A stretch of DNA of 64,000 nt from an uncultured SAR86 cluster bacterium (GTDB lineage: Bacteria; Pseudomonadota; Gammaproteobacteria; Magnimaribacterales; D2472), in assembly GCA_902602185.1 (NCBI GenBank), contig CACKPV010000001.1:296785-360784 (forward strand). The letters are read 5' to 3'. Positions 50,781 through 64,000 of the stretch are shown one piece after another. Each line of letters opens with the position of its first letter. The stretch's first letter is position 1. The notes beneath the pieces were generated by a model. That model made no database searches, had not been told where the DNA came from, and saw only the letters and a program-made list of their open reading frames with translations. Made by a program: the position numbers and the translations under genes.

Positions 50781-50856
50781 GGGGCTATAGCTCAGCTGGG
50801 AGAGCGCCTGCTTTGCACGCAGGAGGTCAGCGGTTCGATCCCGCTTAGCTCCACCA
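50781..50856 (+). tRNA. tRNA-Ala (anticodon TGC)
   Basis: A complete 76-base cloverleaf can be folded by eye. The acceptor 5' strand is GGGGCTA, the D arm is GCTCAGCTGGGAGAGC, and the anticodon arm CCTGC-loop-GCAGG carries TGC at 50814-50816. The T arm contains GGTTCGATCC, and the 3' CCA is encoded. No integrase gene or repeated tRNA end was seen nearby. Confidence 0.97.
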
Positions 50857-51003
50857 AATGCTTTTATCAAAACCCGACAAAGCTTGGGTAGAGGCAGTTA
50901 TGAGAACAAAAAAAATGGCAGTGTTTTTTGGTTTTCAATTCCTTTATATAGCAAATAGTTAACATTCCTGACACACAAAATACATTTTTGCCACAAAAGC
51001 GTT

Positions 51004-51033
51004 TTGATTTTGATACAAAAATGTAAATAAAAT
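51004..51033 (+). promoter_or_regulatory. Candidate promoter of the lipoprotein-TonB receptor pair
   Basis: In the 251-base gap after the tRNA, TTGATT (51004-51009) and TAAAAT (51028-51033) are 18 bases apart. A good ribosome binding site, AAGAGG (51095-51100), lies before the lipoprotein ATG, leaving a leader of about 70 bases. No terminator or clear operator was recognised in the rest of the gap. Confidence 0.35.
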
Positions 51034-51107: not shown

Positions 51108-54038
51108 ATGTGCCTAAAATCAACTAAAAACTTATTTTTAATTTTTTCAATTTTCATTATAGCTTCGTGTGGAGGTGGTGATACTAATATTGCATCTCCT
51201 GGTGAGCTGGGTCCATTATCACCCCCAAGTGATGGTGGTAATGGTGGGGGCGGTAATAGTAATTTACTGACGGGAACCTGTCCTTCTTCTCCATTTATTT
51301 CTAATGATTCAACTCTTGGTGGTAATACATTATGCGCAATTGTTGGTCCAATAACTTCAGATTTAACACTTACAACTGATGTAATGTATCGTCTATCCGG
51401 CTTAGTTGATGTTGGTGTCGATATGGGCGGAGATGGAACAAAATCTGGAGGAGTCGCTGCAACACTAACAATTCCAGCTGGAGTAACGCTTGCTCAAAAA
51501 ACACCTGATGATTATATTGTTGTTCAAAGAGGATCAAAAATTGTTGCTAACGGAACCAGATCCAAACCTATTAGATTTACTGCAGCTTCCGCGATTGACG
51601 GATCTTTAACTAACCCAGACAGTGCGAGTGGTCTTTGGGGTGGAATAGTTATTTTAGGTAAAGCACCAATTAATAAGTGTAGTAATGATGTTAGAGGAAC
51701 TGCTGCTTGCGAGAGAGTGGTTGAAGGTTCTACTAATGCTATTATGGGTGGAGCTTCTCCAGATGATAACTCTGGAGTTTTAAACTTCGTTAGAGTTGAA
51801 TATGCAGGTAAAGAAATATTCCCAGGCAATGAATTAAATGGTATTACCTTTGGCGGTGTTGGTTATGGAACAAAGGTGGACTATGTTCAAGTTCATAATA
51901 ACCAAGATGATTGCGTAGAGTTTTTTGGTGGAACTGTAAACGTAAAACATTTAGTTTGTACCAATGCAGGTGATGATAATCTTGATATCGATTGGGGTTA
52001 TCAAGGAAAAATGCAATTTGTTGTTGTTAAACAAAATGTTGGCGCAGGAGATCATATTGTAGAATCAGACAATACAAATTCTGATGCAGCAGTAGGTTAT
52101 CTAACAGAACCCAGATCACAACCAATGGTTGCCAACTTTACCTTTATTGGAGGAGGAGCTGACGAACCACTTAAGTATAAAGAAGGTGTATCTGGAATTT
52201 ATATCAATGGTATTGTTGTAAACCAAGCATCACAGAATCTCGTTGAAGGTACTTTTTTAGAAACTATTCAAGATGGTGCATTAACAGACAAAATTGCCCA
52301 TCATTCAATATTTTTTGATTCGGGCAATGAAACAGACTTTCCTGTAAAGTTTGATGCAGCAACAGCTGCAGAATTTGCAGCATCACTTGCATCTAGATCG
52401 ACTAATTTAAACTTTGGGTCGAATACAATGGTGGATACATACTTCTTAGGTGATACTGAATCTGCTGTTCCAAGCGCATTTTCAATATCAGAAATTGACG
52501 ATATGTGTGCGGTTGGAACTCATGCAGCCGGAGCTTTAACAGAACTATGTCCTGGATACGATGATGGAAATTACGTTGTTAATAATTGGTTTTCAGCAAC
52601 TGATTATGTTGGTGCTTTTTCACCTGGATCAGATGCAGAAAATAACTGGGCCGCAGGTTGGACTGTTGGTCTATTTACCGATCCTGAGTGTCCTGCTGGA
52701 ACTCTTGAATCTGAAATTCTTTTAGGTAGAAAGGTTTGTGACTTAAGTGGAGTTATAACAGATGATTTAACTCTAGTAGCAGGAAACTATTATAAGCTTG
52801 ATGGTAAAGTTCAAATTGGTGTTGATGTTGGAGCAGATGGTACTGCTTCAGACGGCGACTCAGCTACATTAACTATTAATCCTGGTGTAACAGTTTTTGG
52901 TGAATCAGGTAATGATTATTTAGTAATTATGAGAGGATCGGATATTAATGCTGTAGGAACAAGATCTGCTCCAATCGTGATGACTGGAAGACAAGATATT
53001 CTTGGTCAAGCAGACGTAAACTTAACACGAGGACTTTGGGGAGGCTTAGTCATTCTTGGTCAATCACCAATTAATAAGTGTTCATACGCTTCTACAGGAG
53101 TTAGAACCACTCCATGTGAGAGAGAGGTTGAAGGATCAGCCGGAGATGTAATGGGAGGTGAAATACCAACTGATAGCAGTGGAGCACTCAAATATCTAAG
53201 AGTTCAGTATGCAGGTTATGAGGTATTCCCAGGTAATGAGCTCAACGGAATCACTTTTGGTGGTGTTGGAAGTGGTACTTCGGTTGAATACATTCAAGTT
53301 CATAACAACGCAGATGATTGCGTCGAGTTCTTTGGTGGAACAGTTGATGTAAAACATCTGATCTGTACAGGAGCAGATGATGATAACTTAGATATTGACT
53401 GGGGTTATCAAGGAAGACTTCAATACGTTATAGTTCAACAGGCTAATGATAAAGGTGATCATATTGTCGAATCAGATAATGTTAACAGTGATAGTACTGT
53501 TGGTTATTTAAGTGAGCCTAGATCAAATCCAATTGTTGCTAACTTTACTTTTGTAAGTAGAGGTCATGACGATATATTTAAGTTAAAAGAGGGTGTATCA
53601 GGTCAATATTATAATGGAGTTGCTGCTGTTCTTAACGAAGTTACAGGCAAATCAACAAATTGTATAGAGACTACTAAAACAGAAACACCTCTTGATGGAG
53701 CCATAACACCTAATTTCTCTATGAACTCTGTAGCATTTGATTGCCCAGGATTTATTAAAACTAACGACGGTGTTGCAGTATCAGCAATTGAGGCTATTGT
53801 TAAGGAATCTCCTGATACTAACTTATATGCAGCTACATCTGGTGGTGGTACTTATGTAAATACACTTAGTGGAGTTGTGAACGGTTCTGCAGAAAGTGGT
53901 GCTGCAGTTACAGCTGTTCCTGCAATATACAATGCCGATGGATTTTTTGAAGAAACTACATACATAGGTGCAGTTAGTGGAGTGACTGATAATTGGTACA
54001 AAGGATGGACAGTACCTGGATCAATAAAACTTAACTAA
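51108..54038 (+). CDS. Large secreted lipoprotein with two tandem beta-structured domains
   Basis: The 976-residue product has a lipoprotein signal with lipobox IIASC and Cys21 as the lipidation site, then a Gly/Ser/Pro-rich linker. Two copies of a roughly 450-residue domain follow, at about 60-525 and 530-976. Each copy shows LWGG.VILG..PINKC, EVEG or VVEG, FPGNELNGITFGGVG, HNN.DDCVEFFGGTV, DDNLDIDWGYQG and GDHIVESDN. The repeat-rich beta pattern suggests a parallel beta-helix or adhesin-like surface protein. Related lipoproteins occur next to TonB receptors in marine Gammaproteobacteria and their ligand is unknown. The TonB receptor follows by 29 bases. No enzymatic motif was recognised. 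Confidence 0.85.
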   Translation: MCLKSTKNLFLIFSIFIIASCGGGDTNIASPGELGPLSPPSDGGNGGGGNSNLLTGTCPSSPFISNDSTLGGNTLCAIVGPITSDLTLTTDVMYRLSGLVDVGVDMGGDGTKSGGVAATLTIPAGVTLAQKTPDDYIVVQRGSKIVANGTRSKPIRFTAASAIDGSLTNPDSASGLWGGIVILGKAPINKCSNDVRGTAACERVVEGSTNAIMGGASPDDNSGVLNFVRVEYAGKEIFPGNELNGITFGGVGYGTKVDYVQVHNNQDDCVEFFGGTVNVKHLVCTNAGDDNLDIDWGYQGKMQFVVVKQNVGAGDHIVESDNTNSDAAVGYLTEPRSQPMVANFTFIGGGADEPLKYKEGVSGIYINGIVVNQASQNLVEGTFLETIQDGALTDKIAHHSIFFDSGNETDFPVKFDAATAAEFAASLASRSTNLNFGSNTMVDTYFLGDTESAVPSAFSISEIDDMCAVGTHAAGALTELCPGYDDGNYVVNNWFSATDYVGAFSPGSDAENNWAAGWTVGLFTDPECPAGTLESEILLGRKVCDLSGVITDDLTLVAGNYYKLDGKVQIGVDVGADGTASDGDSATLTINPGVTVFGESGNDYLVIMRGSDINAVGTRSAPIVMTGRQDILGQADVNLTRGLWGGLVILGQSPINKCSYASTGVRTTPCEREVEGSAGDVMGGEIPTDSSGALKYLRVQYAGYEVFPGNELNGITFGGVGSGTSVEYIQVHNNADDCVEFFGGTVDVKHLICTGADDDNLDIDWGYQGRLQYVIVQQANDKGDHIVESDNVNSDSTVGYLSEPRSNPIVANFTFVSRGHDDIFKLKEGVSGQYYNGVAAVLNEVTGKSTNCIETTKTETPLDGAITPNFSMNSVAFDCPGFIKTNDGVAVSAIEAIVKESPDTNLYAATSGGGTYVNTLSGVVNGSAESGAAVTAVPAIYNADGFFEETTYIGAVSGVTDNWYKGWTVPGSIKLN

Positions 54039-54067
54039 TAACTTTATAAAACCTATTTGGAGTAAAA

Positions 54068-56686
54068 ATGAAATCAACAAAAACAACAAACAAAATCTTG
54101 GTTTTTTTAAAGTTTGCTTTACCCTTCATAATAGTTTCTCCATTGTTTATCAATGCTCAAGAAATTGAAGAAGTGGTAGTAAGTGGATCTTTTATACCAG
54201 ATGAGAAAAGAGATACATCCGAGATTTCAGCAATATTAGATTCATCAGAAATCGAAAGAACTGGTGATGACAATATTGCTATCGCCCTTACAAGACTTAC
54301 GGGTCTTAGTCTAGTGCGAGGTAAATATGTATATGTAAGAGGTTTAGGTGACAGATATTCATCTGCTTCACTTAATGGTCTTAATCTTCCTAGTCCAGAA
54401 CCACTCAGGAGAGTCGTACCTCTTGATCTTTTTCCTACAAGCATCATTGAGTCATCTGTAGTGCAAAAAACCTATTCAGCTGACATGCCTGGTGAATTTG
54501 GAGGAGGTATGATTGAGATAAATACAAAAGCTGTTCCATTAGATAGGATCTTTGAATTTTCAGCTTCAGCAGGTTATAACTCTGCTACGTCGTTAAAAGA
54601 TGATGGACTAATGTATGACGGTGGTAGCGATGATAGTTTTGGTTATGATGATGGGACAAGAGCTATACCAGATACTATTAAGAGAGCTATTAATAACAAT
54701 CTTAAACTTGATAGGTCCAACTTTAATTCAACGCAATTAGCTAATTTTGGTCGAGATTTTGAAAATTCAAAACTATGGGTTTTACAATCAGGAGATGTTC
54801 CTCTAGATCAATCTTATAGTTTGACTTATGGAGATAGTCTTGATGGTTTAGGAATTGATAAAATTATTGATGACCCTAGTGCAACAATGGGCTTCATGTT
54901 TACTGCAGGTTTAAAAAGTTCATGGGATACACAAGAAGGAATCAGGCAAACTGGTGATTTACAAAACCAAGGTGATGGTACTGTAGATGTTGTTGTTCAA
55001 AATGACAAAACTTTTAAAAGCACATCAAATGATGTTACAGCATATGCAATGGGTGTTGTTGGTGTTGAAACTGATTCATCTGAAATAAAATATACTGGGC
55101 TATACATTCATAAAGGAACAAAAGAAGCACGTATCCTCCAAGGATATGATTCAAGTGATTCAGCTAATGTCCGTGAAGATTATCTAGAATTTTATGAAAG
55201 AGAGCTAATAAATCATCAGTTTAATTATAATAAGACTTTTGAAAATAACTGGACTTTAGATGTAAGTTTGGGGGACGGAAGGGCTGAAAGAGATTCTCCA
55301 TATGAAAGAGTTGCTTTCTATGAAGATGGAGATGAAGACGGAGTCTACTTATATGATGTTAATACAGGTAGGAACCAAACCCAATTTAGTATGGTCCAAG
55401 ATCAAAATGCAAATGTTGTTTTAGATCTAGAGATACCCCTTGGCGAGTCAACATTTTTGAGTACTGGAGTTGAAAAAGTTGAAAATGATAGATCAGCCGA
55501 AGTTAGAAGCTTTAGATTTCTGGCTGCTGGTGGTCCATTACCTCAAGATGGCTTAGATAATAGAATAGATTATATCTTTGCTGACCAAAACTTTGATCCT
55601 AACAGATTGCTGGTAATCGAGAATACTGCAAGTTCATCACCAGCTGGGTACTTAGGATTATTGGAAATTGATTCAGCATACATTAGTGTTGAATCATCAA
55701 TTGGAGATAATTTTGAATTTACTGCTGGAGTTAGACAAGAAGAAGGTCTGCAGCAAGTTAATACATATGATTTATTTTCAGGTGTTGATTCCTTAATTGA
55801 TAAATCAATAGAAGAAGATTATCAGCTACCTTCAATGACATTAACATATCTCCCTGACTTTGATGAAAACCTTCAAATTAGATTGGGCGCTTCTCAGACA
55901 ATTGCTAGGCCAACCTTCAGGGAACTATCTCCAACGCTGTTTATAGATGTTGATACTGACAGAGTAATAGCTGGCTCACTATATTTAGAAAATAGTGAGA
56001 TTGACAATATTGATTTAAGACTTGAATACTACTTTGGATTTAATCAGTTTTTTACAGCTGGTATTTTCTCAAAGGAAATTCTTAATCCTATCGAAGAAAC
56101 TGTAAATGAATCAGGTGATTTAATTATTACCTCTTACCAAAACGTTCCTTTGGCTGAAATCAATGGATTTGAAATCGAATATGAGCAAGTATTCGAGGCA
56201 ATTATGGATTCACCTAACGACTTAATTGTTAAGTTTAATTATACGGAAACTGAATCTGAAGTAATTGTAAATCCTGGAGATACCTATATAAACAGTATTG
56301 GTACTGTTGTAGATGCTCAAAGTCTTCTTGCGAATGGCAGGGATACCAGATTGCAGGGTCAATCAGATACAATTGCAAACTTTCAAATCGGTTTAGATAA
56401 TTTACAAAACCAAACTCAAGCAACCCTAATTGTTAACTATGTTAGTGATAGGGTAAGAGCTAGAGGTATTGATGTTTTACCGGATATTATTGAAGAACCT
56501 CCACTATTAGTTGATTTTGCATTCTCAAAAATTTATTCATACCCTGAATTTGAGCTAAAACTATCTCTTGAGCTAAGAAATTTACTAGATGAGGAGTACT
56601 ATGCATCAATGAGAAATATCGCAATATATGATCAATATGATCTTGGAACATCAGCTTCATTAGGATTTAAATTCTCCTTTAAATAA
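54068..56686 (+). CDS. TonB-dependent outer-membrane receptor
   Basis: The 872-residue protein has a signal peptide (to about residue 30, ending INAQ) and a TonB-box-like IEEVVVSG. The plug domain has VRGLGDRYSSASLNGLNLPSPEPLRRVVPLDLFPTSIIESSVVQKTYSADMPGEFGGG, a pattern of a specific carbohydrate/protein-ligand receptor subgroup rather than siderophore receptors. A long beta-barrel ends in an aromatic residue next to the last position (FSFK). It pairs with the upstream lipoprotein, which may capture or present the ligand. A palindromic terminator follows. Confidence 0.92.
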   Translation: MKSTKTTNKILVFLKFALPFIIVSPLFINAQEIEEVVVSGSFIPDEKRDTSEISAILDSSEIERTGDDNIAIALTRLTGLSLVRGKYVYVRGLGDRYSSASLNGLNLPSPEPLRRVVPLDLFPTSIIESSVVQKTYSADMPGEFGGGMIEINTKAVPLDRIFEFSASAGYNSATSLKDDGLMYDGGSDDSFGYDDGTRAIPDTIKRAINNNLKLDRSNFNSTQLANFGRDFENSKLWVLQSGDVPLDQSYSLTYGDSLDGLGIDKIIDDPSATMGFMFTAGLKSSWDTQEGIRQTGDLQNQGDGTVDVVVQNDKTFKSTSNDVTAYAMGVVGVETDSSEIKYTGLYIHKGTKEARILQGYDSSDSANVREDYLEFYERELINHQFNYNKTFENNWTLDVSLGDGRAERDSPYERVAFYEDGDEDGVYLYDVNTGRNQTQFSMVQDQNANVVLDLEIPLGESTFLSTGVEKVENDRSAEVRSFRFLAAGGPLPQDGLDNRIDYIFADQNFDPNRLLVIENTASSSPAGYLGLLEIDSAYISVESSIGDNFEFTAGVRQEEGLQQVNTYDLFSGVDSLIDKSIEEDYQLPSMTLTYLPDFDENLQIRLGASQTIARPTFRELSPTLFIDVDTDRVIAGSLYLENSEIDNIDLRLEYYFGFNQFFTAGIFSKEILNPIEETVNESGDLIITSYQNVPLAEINGFEIEYEQVFEAIMDSPNDLIVKFNYTETESEVIVNPGDTYINSIGTVVDAQSLLANGRDTRLQGQSDTIANFQIGLDNLQNQTQATLIVNYVSDRVRARGIDVLPDIIEEPPLLVDFAFSKIYSYPEFELKLSLELRNLLDEEYYASMRNIAIYDQYDLGTSASLGFKFSFK

Positions 56687-56962: not shown

Positions 56963-57607
56963 ATGAAAATAAAAAAATACATTGCTGAATTTTTAGGAAC
57001 CTTTTTTTTAGTGGCTACAGTCATTGGTTCCGGGATCATGGGTGATAATTTATCTTCTGGTAATGTGGCAGTGGCTTTATTAGGTAATACGATTGCAACC
57101 GGAGCAATTCTTTATGTCATCATTAAATCTTTTGAAGATTTATCAGGAGCTCACTTTAATCCAATTGTCTCAATAGTCTTTTATTTTTTAAAAGAGATCA
57201 ACTTAAAAGATTTACTCTTCTATTTAATTATTCAATTCATTGCAGGATTTTTCGCAGTAATATTTATTCATTTCATATTTGAACTTAGTTTGCTTCAAAT
57301 TTCATCCAAACCCAGGATGGGAATCAGTATGGTTTTAAGTGAAATAATTGCATCATTGGGATTAATTTTAACTATCTTAATGGTTAGAAAAAATAATAAG
57401 TCTAATGTAGCTATTTCAGTGGCTTTATTTATTACAGCGGGTTACTGGTTTACATCGTCTACCTCATTCGCAAATCCAGCAGTAACTCTAGCTAGGACAT
57501 TTACGGATACTTTTACTGGAATTTCACCAGAGTCGATTATTTATTTCTTTTCAGGCCAATTAATTGGTCTGTTCATTGCTTTGTATATTTATAAATTTTT
57601 AAGATGA
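56963..57607 (+). CDS. MIP/aquaporin family channel, probably arsenical-associated
   Basis: The 214-residue membrane protein has six hydrophobic spans and two pore motifs. The first is GAHFNPIVS (66-68 NPI, where Asn-Pro-Ala is usual) and the second FANPAVTLARTFTDTF (171-173 NPA, with the conserved Arg178). The N-terminus FLGTFFLVATVIGSG is typical of MIP channels. Because arsC follows with a four-base overlap, the channel probably lets arsenite formed by ArsC leave the cell, as AqpS does in some Alphaproteobacteria. That role is inferred from context; water or glycerol transport is the alternative. Confidence 0.85.
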   Translation: MKIKKYIAEFLGTFFLVATVIGSGIMGDNLSSGNVAVALLGNTIATGAILYVIIKSFEDLSGAHFNPIVSIVFYFLKEINLKDLLFYLIIQFIAGFFAVIFIHFIFELSLLQISSKPRMGISMVLSEIIASLGLILTILMVRKNNKSNVAISVALFITAGYWFTSSTSFANPAVTLARTFTDTFTGISPESIIYFFSGQLIGLFIALYIYKFLR

Positions 57608-58023
57608 GAGAATCGAAGAAAATATTATTTCTCTGCACTGGAAATTCTTGTAGATCGCAAATGGCTGAAGGTTTTGCAAAAAAATTTACTACTTTTCAGG
57701 CTTATTCAGCTGGCACTAGAAAATCTAATTTAAATTCATATGCAATCAAAGTAATGTCAGAAGTCAAAATTGATATATCTGATCAATTCTCTAAAACCAT
57801 AAACGAATTGGAAGACAAAGATTTTGATTATGTTTTTACTTTATGTTCAGATGCTGAAGAAAACTGTCCAGTCTTATTCAAAGGGAAGACCATACACAAA
57901 GGTTTTGAAGATCCTCCTATGCTCTCAGAAAATATAAATGATGATGAAAAAATATTAAATATTTACAGAAGGGTAAGGGATGAAATTCTTGATTTCATTC
58001 TAAATATCAATCATGACATTTAA
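57604..58023 (+). CDS. arsC: Arsenate reductase, thioredoxin-coupled low-molecular-weight phosphatase type
   Basis: ArsC reduces arsenate to arsenite. The 139-residue protein has the P-loop CTGNSCRS with nucleophile Cys11 and Arg17. The two further cysteines needed for thioredoxin coupling are Cys81 and Cys88 in LCSDAEENCP, equivalent to Cys10, Cys82 and Cys89 of the staphylococcal enzyme, and EDPP supplies the general-acid Asp. The presence of all three Cys favours arsenate reductase over a protein tyrosine phosphatase. A phosphate transporter fragment lies 73 bases downstream. Confidence 0.92.
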   Translation: MRESKKILFLCTGNSCRSQMAEGFAKKFTTFQAYSAGTRKSNLNSYAIKVMSEVKIDISDQFSKTINELEDKDFDYVFTLCSDAEENCPVLFKGKTIHKGFEDPPMLSENINDDEKILNIYRRVRDEILDFILNINHDI

Positions 58024-61918: not shown

Positions 61919-64000
61919 TTAAAAGTTCCTTTGCAAGGAAAGTCTAAAGTTTCGTTCTCTACCAACTGAAGCTTGGTGTGTACTATGCGAATGAGGGAAA
62001 TACAACTCATCCGTTAAGTTTTCCATATGCAGTCTCAATGAAAGATCATCAGATATCATATAGTAAACTGCTGCATCAAACCTTGTATATTCGGGGAGGA
62101 TTTGCGAACCACCATCTTTAATTAGTGATTCTCCTTGATGCATAATACCAACAGCCCAACCGAGCTTTGGATTGACTTCATAGTTTGCCCACATTGAGTA
62201 CATGGTTTCTGGGATTTCTCTGGCATCTTTTGTGCCGTTCTTCCCTTCCATGCTGGTATAACCAAAAGTAACATCCAAGTTATCGTTTACTCTGCCTTTG
62301 AGTTCAAGTTCGATTCCGTCAACTACTAGTCCTCTCTCGACAATATATTCTGCACTCGAACCGTCATAGCCAGCTTTATCAGCTTCACTATCAAAGTATG
62401 CGGCTGTCAAACTAAGATCAGAACTTAGATCAACTTTTACACCTAATTCTGTATTCTCAAAATAGTCAGGTCTAAGTGTTTCACCAGAACCAGGAGCTCC
62501 ACCAGTAAGTTTCTTATATTGCTCACCAGATCTTGGTGCAAAACTCTCACTGTAACTATAATAAATAGAAACTGCGTCTCTTGGTTTGAAGATTACTCCC
62601 ATTCTTGGTGAAAATTCACTATCTTCTCTCGATGCTGAAGTTCCATTCTTGATATCATCAACAGTCACATCAAAAGTATCATGACGCCCACCTAAAACAA
62701 GTACTATGTTATCTGTTAAATCAACTTGATCTTGAATATAAAAGGAAGTAACTGATATGTCAGTTTCTGTATCTGTTTTCAATGAACATGGATTCGTATA
62801 TTCTACCGCTGTGGGTAATCCACCTGCAGTCACAGTGAAGTCCATTGGATCAGTAATATTGAATGATTCTTGATCATATCCACTCACTGAACAATCTTTT
62901 GATGTCCAATACGTATTGTACCTAAAGTTACTATTTTCTGTGTCTATGCTTTCAAAACCAGCTAATACTGTATGGGTTGTATTACCAATAATAAGCTCGT
63001 TTACCAGACTTCCAGTCACGATAAAATTGTCTCGCTCTGTAGGATCATGATATCCATCCATTGTTACAACACCACTATCAGCTGTGTGTGAAGCTGCATA
63101 GGTATTCTGATACATTTTTTCAAAACTATTTGAAGTTACAGAAAGGTTTCCTTTTCTTGTATCCGAAAAAACATGACTAACTGTTGCTCTAAATACTGAT
63201 GCTTCAACAGTATGAATATTGTTATCTTTGTCTCCAAAAACAATACCTGCAAATGCCTTAACTGGCTCATTATTAGCTGTCGGGATACCTCTATCGATAA
63301 ATCTTTCGTGATCGATGTGCTCATAAGATAGGTCCAAGGTTGTATCAGCACTAAATTTCATTCTTAAAGTTGGATTGAAACCAAGTCTGTCTCCATCATA
63401 ATAGTCTCTGTGGTTTTCTAATGTATCACTGTGCACATTCAATCGTAGTGCCATTGTGTCACTTAAATCCATGTTGACATCAGCGGCTAAGTCAAATGCA
63501 CCAAATGAGTCCATGCCAACATTTACCGTTCTAGCATCACTGCCTATCATTGCTTTTTTTGTGACTCTGTTGAGTGCTCCACCAGTACCACCTCTTCCGA
63601 ATAAAAGTGCATTTGGACCTCTTAAGATCTCAACTTGTTCAACGTTATATAGTGAACGGTAATATTGCACATCATCTCTTGCACCATCTTGGAAAAAGTC
63701 AGCTGTTGATCTGACACCTCGAAATACTACTGCATCACGATGACCCTCACCTTGCGATGTATTAACACCAGGTGTATACCTGATAATGTCTCCAACTGAC
63801 CTCATGCCCTTTTTAAGCATTTCATCATCAGTAATGATAGAAAGAGACTGGGGCACATTGATAATAGGTGTTGGTGTCTTAAGTGCATTCACTTGATCTG
63901 ATTGAAGAACTTTGCCTTTGACAACAACTTCTTCCACTTCTGCATCTTGAGCAATAATTGAAGTTGAAATAAAAAATCCGCAAACGGCTACTAAACTTAA
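61919..64000 (-). CDS. TonB-dependent siderophore receptor (5' end outside window)
   Basis: The visible 693 residues include the tail of a signal peptide (VCGFFISTSIIAQDAEVEE) running off the window end, so the start codon is not seen. The plug has VPQSLSIITDDEMLKKGMRSVGDIIRYTPGVNTSQGEGHRDAVVFRGV and VEQVEILRGPNALLFGRGGTGGALNRVTKK, diagnostic of the siderophore-receptor (TonB-siderophor) family, close to catecholate receptors such as Fiu. The barrel ends in an aromatic residue (LQRNF). It would import ferric siderophores through the outer membrane. A strong terminator hairpin follows. Confidence 0.93.
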   Translation of the reverse strand, partial: LSLVAVCGFFISTSIIAQDAEVEEVVVKGKVLQSDQVNALKTPTPIINVPQSLSIITDDEMLKKGMRSVGDIIRYTPGVNTSQGEGHRDAVVFRGVRSTADFFQDGARDDVQYYRSLYNVEQVEILRGPNALLFGRGGTGGALNRVTKKAMIGSDARTVNVGMDSFGAFDLAADVNMDLSDTMALRLNVHSDTLENHRDYYDGDRLGFNPTLRMKFSADTTLDLSYEHIDHERFIDRGIPTANNEPVKAFAGIVFGDKDNNIHTVEASVFRATVSHVFSDTRKGNLSVTSNSFEKMYQNTYAASHTADSGVVTMDGYHDPTERDNFIVTGSLVNELIIGNTTHTVLAGFESIDTENSNFRYNTYWTSKDCSVSGYDQESFNITDPMDFTVTAGGLPTAVEYTNPCSLKTDTETDISVTSFYIQDQVDLTDNIVLVLGGRHDTFDVTVDDIKNGTSASREDSEFSPRMGVIFKPRDAVSIYYSYSESFAPRSGEQYKKLTGGAPGSGETLRPDYFENTELGVKVDLSSDLSLTAAYFDSEADKAGYDGSSAEYIVERGLVVDGIELELKGRVNDNLDVTFGYTSMEGKNGTKDAREIPETMYSMWANYEVNPKLGWAVGIMHQGESLIKDGGSQILPEYTRFDAAVYYMISDDLSLRLHMENLTDELYFPHSHSTHQASVGRERNFRLSLQRNF

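Follow-up and report, generated by a model that had tools for sequence, protein, structure and literature searches.

What could a two-domain surface lipoprotein and the TonB-dependent receptor (TBDR) encoded next to it be capturing for a bacterium of the surface ocean? The question was raised by a gene pair in a stretch of 64,000 nucleotides (the window; positions 296,785 to 360,784 of contig CACKPV010000001.1, assembly GCA_902602185.1) from an uncultured SAR86 bacterium, whose genome (G000; in the following, G numbers denote genomes and L numbers loci or stretches) comprises 1.09 Mb in 12 contigs and is 82% complete. Phosphate is often scarce in the surface ocean. SAR86 are among the most abundant bacteria of these waters, and an account of their TonB transporters deals mainly with siderophores (PMC11582366). 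In the literature on SAR86 with TonB, lipoprotein or phosphate, covered by titles and abstract openings with subscription journals mostly outside, no description of the pair was found. The evidence gathered here indicates that the pair is probably an ElpS-type phosphate-starvation system, by which a phosphorus ligand would be captured at the cell surface for TonB-dependent import. The assignment to phosphate starvation in SAR86 is new, as is the proposal of an old domain duplication common to Alphaproteobacteria with a homogenised core. Through the phosphate link, a family that has no Pfam or NCBIfam model and recurs in Proteobacteria and Bacteroidota acquires a function open to testing.

The earlier note, made by a model from the letters of the window, had proposed a tandem-domain lipoprotein closely paired with a TonB receptor, as the product of an old and conserved duplication. 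Both open reading frames (ORFs) were found where it had placed them (Table 1), and the two lipoprotein halves, D1 and D2, are identical at 228 of 434 aligned residues, with a local alignment score of 1035 vs a maximum of 82 among 200 shuffles; three motif blocks are shared, each being present once per half. The lipoprotein carries a lipobox (IIAS before Cys21), comparable ones being found in relatives, and the receptor gene begins downstream after a gap of 29 bp. Plug was the sole Pfam family above cut-off in the receptor (E 2e-7). For the lipoprotein, Pfam and NCBIfam searches allowing E values up to 1 were negative, as were sequence and profile searches of the PDB with limits of E 1, 1 and 10. 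No second lipoprotein copy was found elsewhere in the incomplete G000 genome, and a promoter and terminator scan remained at chance level.

A lipoprotein ORF was scored as paired if a receptor gene lay within 2.5 kb of it on the same strand; ORFs under 100 bits were left out of the counts. The 41 SAR86 loci contain 43 such ORFs, of which 39 were paired, all four misses running off a contig end. Pairing was likewise observed for all six ORFs of other SAR86 families and all three of named sphingomonads, as well as in 21/29 cases of a class survey, 44/46 of a phylum survey and 8/9 plasmid records, the nine being those read among 21 found. The pairing is real, and homologues standing mostly without a receptor, which the earlier note had named as its counter-evidence, were not what these surveys returned. 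The receptor lay upstream of the lipoprotein gene in 18/21 cases of the class survey; the low-scoring ORFs of L120 and L121 had no receptor nearby. Lipoprotein matches were absent from 5 of the 10 genomes of the same genus and 20 of 41 relatives, many of them incomplete, and from 337/369 class genomes and 347/398 phylum genomes. The Bacteroidota members L166, L169 and L170 have one domain each. Domain relatives with no lipobox, a different N-terminal region and no TonB receptor nearby were also observed (L109, L110, L113, L123 and L168; L108 is alike but reaches a contig end).

Gene order supplied the decisive evidence on function. phoB and/or phoR occur in 29 of the 41 SAR86 loci and type II secretion system (T2SS, gsp) genes in 28, on the same stretch; at least one of phoB, phoR, ppx, ppk2, PiT, phytase and gsp was found in 37, the other four stretches being 4.7-5.7 kb long. 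The response regulators tested had PhoB as their best NCBIfam match, below cut-off. The commonest order is pilD / phoB-phoR-lipoprotein-receptor-gspC-D-E-F; examples are L021 and L025, with proteins sharing 98-99% identity with those of the window. Similarly, G013 presents phoB-phoR-ElpS-TBDR-gspC-D-E-F on a single strand. A second SAR86 order runs phoR-ppx-ppk2-lipoprotein-receptor-MIP-ArsC-receptor 2-phytase-PiT, and G035, from another SAR86 family with a single-domain lipoprotein, combines plcP-like / phoB-phoR / ppx-ppk2 / PiT / pilD / lipoprotein-receptor-gspC-F. Arsenate genes are linked in three SAR86 families, which fits phosphate uptake. Beyond SAR86, Alteromonas and its relatives have PhoBR-PstS before the pair and ExbB/ExbD/TonB after it, and in many Alphaproteobacteria the pair is followed by T2SS genes. 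Therefore, the gene order places the pair in a phosphate-starvation system.

At the window itself, the pair adjoins a tRNA-Ala gene and is bracketed by two fragments missed in the earlier note, the 3′ end of phoR (54 bases from 50905) and the truncated 5′ end of PiT. The segment 50905-56704 is 98.2% identical to L025, of the phoBR-T2SS operon type, and the spacer, MIP and ArsC sequences are 99.2-99.7% identical to L252 and L028, of the MIP-ArsC type, whose lipoprotein genes are only 78-83% identical to that of the window. On contig C6 of the same genome, a phoB-phoR-gspC order lacks the pair and has ppk2, ppx, PiT, phytase and a second receptor close by, and neither cassette junction was present in nine other genomes of the genus. 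The segment 50905-58270 is most likely a relocated mosaic of a phosphate island with two SAR86 sources, an assembly chimera being less likely; in either case the phoR and PiT remnants on its flanks tie the pair to phosphate genes.

A comparable pair was described in 2010 in Caulobacter crescentus; in view of the gene neighbourhood and of this precedent, the earlier note had been too cautious in leaving the target unknown. ElpS (CC0170) is a surface lipoprotein induced by low phosphate, and its gene is followed by the receptor gene cc0171 and then by the T2SS operon; both proteins were detected in stalk extracts at low phosphate, and overproduction of ElpS raised secreted phosphatase activity (PMC2996285). 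Moreover, the PhoB regulon of Caulobacter includes the T2SS and several TonB receptors (PMC11208175). The SAR86 pair likewise consists of a lipobox lipoprotein with a TonB receptor gene immediately downstream, followed in its orthologues by T2SS genes, an order that is associated rather than defining and is shown by the L021 and L025 orthologues and not by the window cassette, which has left the phoBR/T2SS operon. The phosphate-starvation response was described in Caulobacter, and the SAR86 pair is linked to phosphate by its gene neighbours. The secreted form of ElpS is of about 50 kDa and is therefore probably single-domain, whereas the SAR86 lipoprotein has two domains. The SAR86 pair is provisionally best filed as a tandem variant of the ElpS-type system, and by analogy with the Caulobacter experiments its lipoprotein would be exposed at the surface and induced by low phosphate. 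This comparison also makes the joint role of ElpS and CC0171 testable in Caulobacter. The FI and FII lipoproteins of Flavobacterium johnsoniae, encoded beside receptors, are also induced by low phosphate, FII within a phoBR operon, and were related by their authors to the Caulobacter protein at 31-36% identity (PMC8115612); they resemble the SAR86 protein by description, and their hosts, unlike SAR86, are Bacteroidota.

The likeness to SusD-SusC suggested in the earlier note holds as a working analogy, since SusD-SusC, BtuG-BtuB and XusB-XusA also join a surface lipoprotein to a TonB receptor, with capture and hand-over assumed, and it fails at the level of domain and predicted fold. Membership of the SusD family was rejected: no SusD domain was found in the lipoprotein, and PF07980 was absent from G000 as far as this genome is complete, the Bacteroides control being positive. 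SusD also has a fold different from the beta-helix predicted here. Membership of the receptor in SusC/RagA was rejected as well, since neither a SusC/RagA receptor model nor a carboxypeptidase-like N-terminal extension was found, only Plug lying above cut-off in Pfam and TIGR01782 remaining sub-threshold in NCBIfam. XusB is a beta-propeller (PMC13142918), unlike the SAR86 lipoprotein with its predicted beta-helix.

Upstream sequences were analysed for TGTNAC half-sites 11 bases apart, one mismatch being allowed. Such Pho-box-like repeats precede 17 of 19 SAR86 lipoprotein genes and were found in 14 of 74 upstream regions used as controls. Across whole genomes the exact double motif is rare; counts on both strands against a reversed-pattern control were 9 v 0 in the window's own genome, 7 v 1 in G026, 3 v 0 in G010 and 2 v 0 in G013, and did not exceed the control in G015 (2 v 2) and G035 (1 v 1). 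In G026 no match is farther than 14 kb from the lipoprotein gene, and one cluster stands about 220 bp upstream of that gene; one exact double motif of G010 precedes a PhoD phosphatase gene.

As to the protein itself, a model of D2 built from 25 aligned domains was confident (predicted local distance difference test, pLDDT, 88.1; predicted template modelling score, pTM, 0.91) and matched right-handed beta-helices in the VIA comparison with Z 18-23, a root-mean-square deviation of 2.5-4.3 and about 250-315 residues aligned, the matches including tailspikes, NosD, AlgE/AlgG, PL6 and PL9 lyases and GH28. With the same model, Foldseek returned nothing reaching E 0.001. Each lipoprotein domain is thus predicted to be a right-handed beta-helix, a fold shared with PL6, PL9, AlgE/AlgG and GH28 enzymes and phage tailspikes, although the lipoprotein has no sequence match to these proteins and its Foldseek E-values are weak. 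The full-length model was weak (pLDDT 75, pTM 0.67), so that the domain arrangement could not be read from it. Among 91 aligned domains, taken from SAR86 and other Gammaproteobacteria, from Alphaproteobacteria and from Bacteroidota, seven residues were invariant (D211, D212, E215, D233, D234, D237 and E263 in D2 numbering), and positions E150, D164 and E186 were acidic in all 91. The pairs D211/D233, D212/D234 and E215/D237 are spaced by 22 residues, about one helix turn, and should therefore stack on the same face. No Lys, Arg or other basic residue was invariant among the 91 domains (the best were R84, 82/91, and H207, 75/91), for which reason the acidic ladder is tentatively read as a site of cation-mediated binding rather than of catalysis. 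It may resemble the calcium ligands of the pectate lyase Pel9A (PDB 1ru4), which was among the fold matches.

The history of the two domains agrees with the age proposed in the earlier note. Different codons are used at 102 of the 228 identical residues (NG86 nonsynonymous and synonymous distances, dN 0.46 and dS 1.21), and in the domain tree the D1s and D2s of SAR86 group I form two separate clades (support 99 each; 8 and 8 rows), which ruled out a recent duplication in SAR86. In the full-length domain tree, the domains of the same protein were nearest each other in all eight alphaproteobacterial doubles, which brought up an independent duplication in each of these lineages as a candidate. 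A single old duplication was favoured over it on the basis of the ends-only tree (153 columns), in which the D1/D2 label needs 2 changes among these doubles, vs 8 in the core-only tree (212 columns), and of a reversed sign of identity, since in 8/8 of them identity was higher between orthologues for the ends (+0.04 to +0.18) and higher within the protein for the core (-0.08 to -0.30). SAR86 D1 groups with alphaproteobacterial D1 in the ends-only tree and SAR86 D2 falls on the alphaproteobacterial D2 side, with fork supports mostly of 73-92. In the receptor tree (80 receptors), the single/double state needs 5 changes, vs a shuffled mean of 26.8. Approximately unbiased (AU) tests on full-length domains did not reject the constraint joining only L198_D1 and L209_D1 (p-AU 0.196) and rejected one holding four D1s together (p-AU 2.5e-5). 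The split between ends and core resolves the conflict between the domain and receptor trees; the favoured reading is that the duplication is old and common to SAR86 and Alphaproteobacteria, and that the acidic core was probably homogenised within each protein by gene conversion. The two halves of the lipoprotein gene would then be a clear case of concerted evolution. The gammaproteobacterial proteins L103 and L106, in which ends and core are both more alike within than between proteins, look like recent duplications. An AU test against a single SAR86 receptor clade gave p 0.031 for a group named after inspection of the tree, so that transfer between Alphaproteobacteria and SAR86 group I is only hinted at. 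Furthermore, a three-domain lipoprotein of 1356 amino acids was observed on an Alteromonas macleodii plasmid (L164, 5459-9526), within a plasmid-borne phoBR-pstS cluster.

Taken together, these observations suggest how an ElpS-type phosphate-starvation pair might operate in SAR86. The lipoprotein would be exported to the cell surface and held there by a flexible linker ending in the acylated cysteine, displaying two beta-helix domains whose acidic ladders would probably bind divalent cations (Ca2+) and thereby an anionic phosphorus ligand, such as a phosphoester or an inositol phosphate. The ligand, or a product released from it by extracellular enzymes, would be passed on to the neighbouring TonB receptor and imported with energy, and hydrolases would reach this space through type II secretion. 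Two domains could provide higher avidity, or one might capture ligand with the other docked on the receptor. By analogy with XusB-XusA (PMC13142918), the pair likely works by capture and hand-over. A more ambitious version can be offered tentatively, namely that the pair represents a proteobacterial, non-Bacteroidota form of lipoprotein-assisted TonB import for phosphorus compounds, in which two cation-ladder beta-helices on a single lipid anchor capture organophosphate for a dedicated receptor, their ligand-binding cores being kept alike by repeated intragenic gene conversion while their ends diverge for docking roles.

Several points weigh against the phosphate-capture reading. The TGTNAC motif was fixed after the sequences had been inspected, and several of the 19 genes are close relatives; canonical half-sites were not significantly enriched (3/19 vs 8/74 and 7/19 vs 15/74), canonical Pho-box scoring did not reach significance, and the window's own repeat is weak by the shuffling test of Table 1, being stronger in most relatives. 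In the window the pair no longer adjoins phoBR or T2SS genes, and four loci of SAR86 family f4 have MIP and ArsC as their only linked genes, the 15 kb examined there containing neither phoBR nor gsp. The likeness to CC0170 was drawn by gene order and literature and not by sequence. In Caulobacter, deletion of elpS left phosphatase activity unchanged, cc0171 was constitutively expressed and its deletion did not stop ElpS production, and no change in intracellular phosphate was detected (PMC2996285).

These points have to be set against what other explanations can accommodate. The lipoprotein might be a surface beta-helix hydrolase or lyase, fold-related to polygalacturonases and pectate or alginate lyases, that cuts a phosphate-bearing or masking polysaccharide whose product the receptor imports; most of the fold matches are indeed beta-helix enzymes and tailspike depolymerases, the stacked Asp/Glu residues are invariant, and the Flavobacterium relatives were noted to resemble polygalacturonases (ISME J 2020). 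We regard this as unlikely in view of the Foldseek result, the absence of sequence matches to such enzymes and of an invariant basic residue, and the report that refolded or precipitated ElpS had no alkaline phosphatase activity (PMC2996285). Near the proposal of the ElpS authors, the lipoprotein could instead activate or anchor a phosphatase secreted by the T2SS, with the receptor acting independently. The effect of ElpS overproduction and the adjacent T2SS genes speak for such a role; it is nevertheless quite improbable, because the receptor is the most constant neighbour, even on stretches without T2SS genes, and the elpS deletion was without effect on activity. A capture of glycans or siderophores unconnected to phosphate, which the SusCD-like architecture would allow, accounts poorly for the Pho, T2SS, phytase and arsenate neighbours in several SAR86 families and the Pho genes of Alteromonads, and with no SusD domain found in the lipoprotein or the incomplete genome its probability is very low. 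It is least credible that the cassette of this strain is a mobile or misassembled by-product no longer working in the Pho system: its junctions, shared by none of the nine other genomes examined, and its two-source composition would suit that explanation, and yet both genes are intact, with 98.6% DNA identity to the L025 operon copy, and no other copy of the lipoprotein gene was found in the incomplete G000.

Table 1. Coordinates of the gene pair, its internal features and its flanks in the window
Feature	Position	Strand	Basis
tRNA-Ala (TGC), adjoined by the cassette	50781..50856	+	ARAGORN
phoR 3′ end, 17 codons plus stop, remnant ahead of the lipoprotein gene	50905..50958	+	NKKNGSVFWFSIPLYSK plus stop vs PhoR end NKKNGSIFWFTLPLHSK plus stop of L025; DNA identity to L025 begins at 50905
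Weak Pho-box-like direct repeat, 8/10 positions of TGTNAC N5 TGTNAC	51011..51027	+	Shuffle p 0.13
Tandem-domain putative surface lipoprotein, ElpS-like, 976 amino acids (aa)	51108..54038	+	ORF, internal alignment, relatives
Lipidated Cys21 and post-cysteine motif IASPG (aa 28-32)	51168..51203	+	Motif common to alphaproteobacterial relatives
Domain D1 (aa 58-520)	51279..52667	+	Alignment of halves
D1 acidic ladder D267 D268 E271 D289 D290 D293 E319	51906..52064	+	Invariant in 91/91 domains
Domain D2 (aa 528-969), predicted right-handed beta-helix	52689..54014	+	Alignment of halves and structure model
D2 acidic ladder D736 D737 E740 D758 D759 D762 E788	53313..53471	+	Invariant in 91/91 domains
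Partner TonB-dependent receptor, 872 aa	54068..56686	+	Plug PF07715; TIGR01782 203.6 bits, under cut-off 310
MIP-family channel, probable arsenite channel	56963..57607	+	TIGR00861 below cut-off; 99.7% identical L252 counterpart passes Pfam MIP
ArsC-type arsenate reductase / low-molecular-weight phosphatase family	57604..58023	+	Best NCBIfam match TIGR02691, below cut-off
PiT phosphate permease 5′ fragment, 57 codons	58097..58270	+	Five relatives match at 94-97% DNA identity across 228 bases; translation ends at stop

Other elements of the SAR86 phosphate islands were also observed. A second TonB receptor lies beside a Pfam phytase gene (L252, 10914-14544; L253, 13394-17082; L251, 1361-4958), and in L252 and L251 the receptor is immediately preceded by an exact Pho-box-like repeat; the two genes are a candidate uptake unit for phytate or inositol phosphate. 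A small conserved protein, of about 140-158 amino acids where complete, is encoded in L247 (4304-4765, minus strand), L252 (3012-3485, minus), L253 (12062-12508, minus), L254 (4670-5092, plus) and L257 (9889-10170, minus), and in L247, L252, L253 and L254 there are exact Pho-box-like repeats at this gene or close to it; the two versions scanned, from L247 and L253, belong to no Pfam family, and the protein is possibly an unrecognised SAR86 phosphate-starvation protein. Two alternative motifs follow the lipidated cysteine, (I/V)(A/S)SPG in most Alphaproteobacteria and SAR86 group I and CGGDIN(I/L) in many Alteromonads, and both are candidate signals for surface export or receptor docking. Elsewhere in the window, a separate siderophore-type TonB-dependent receptor, unrelated to the pair, was found at 61919-63937 on the minus strand, with TIGR01783 above cut-off.

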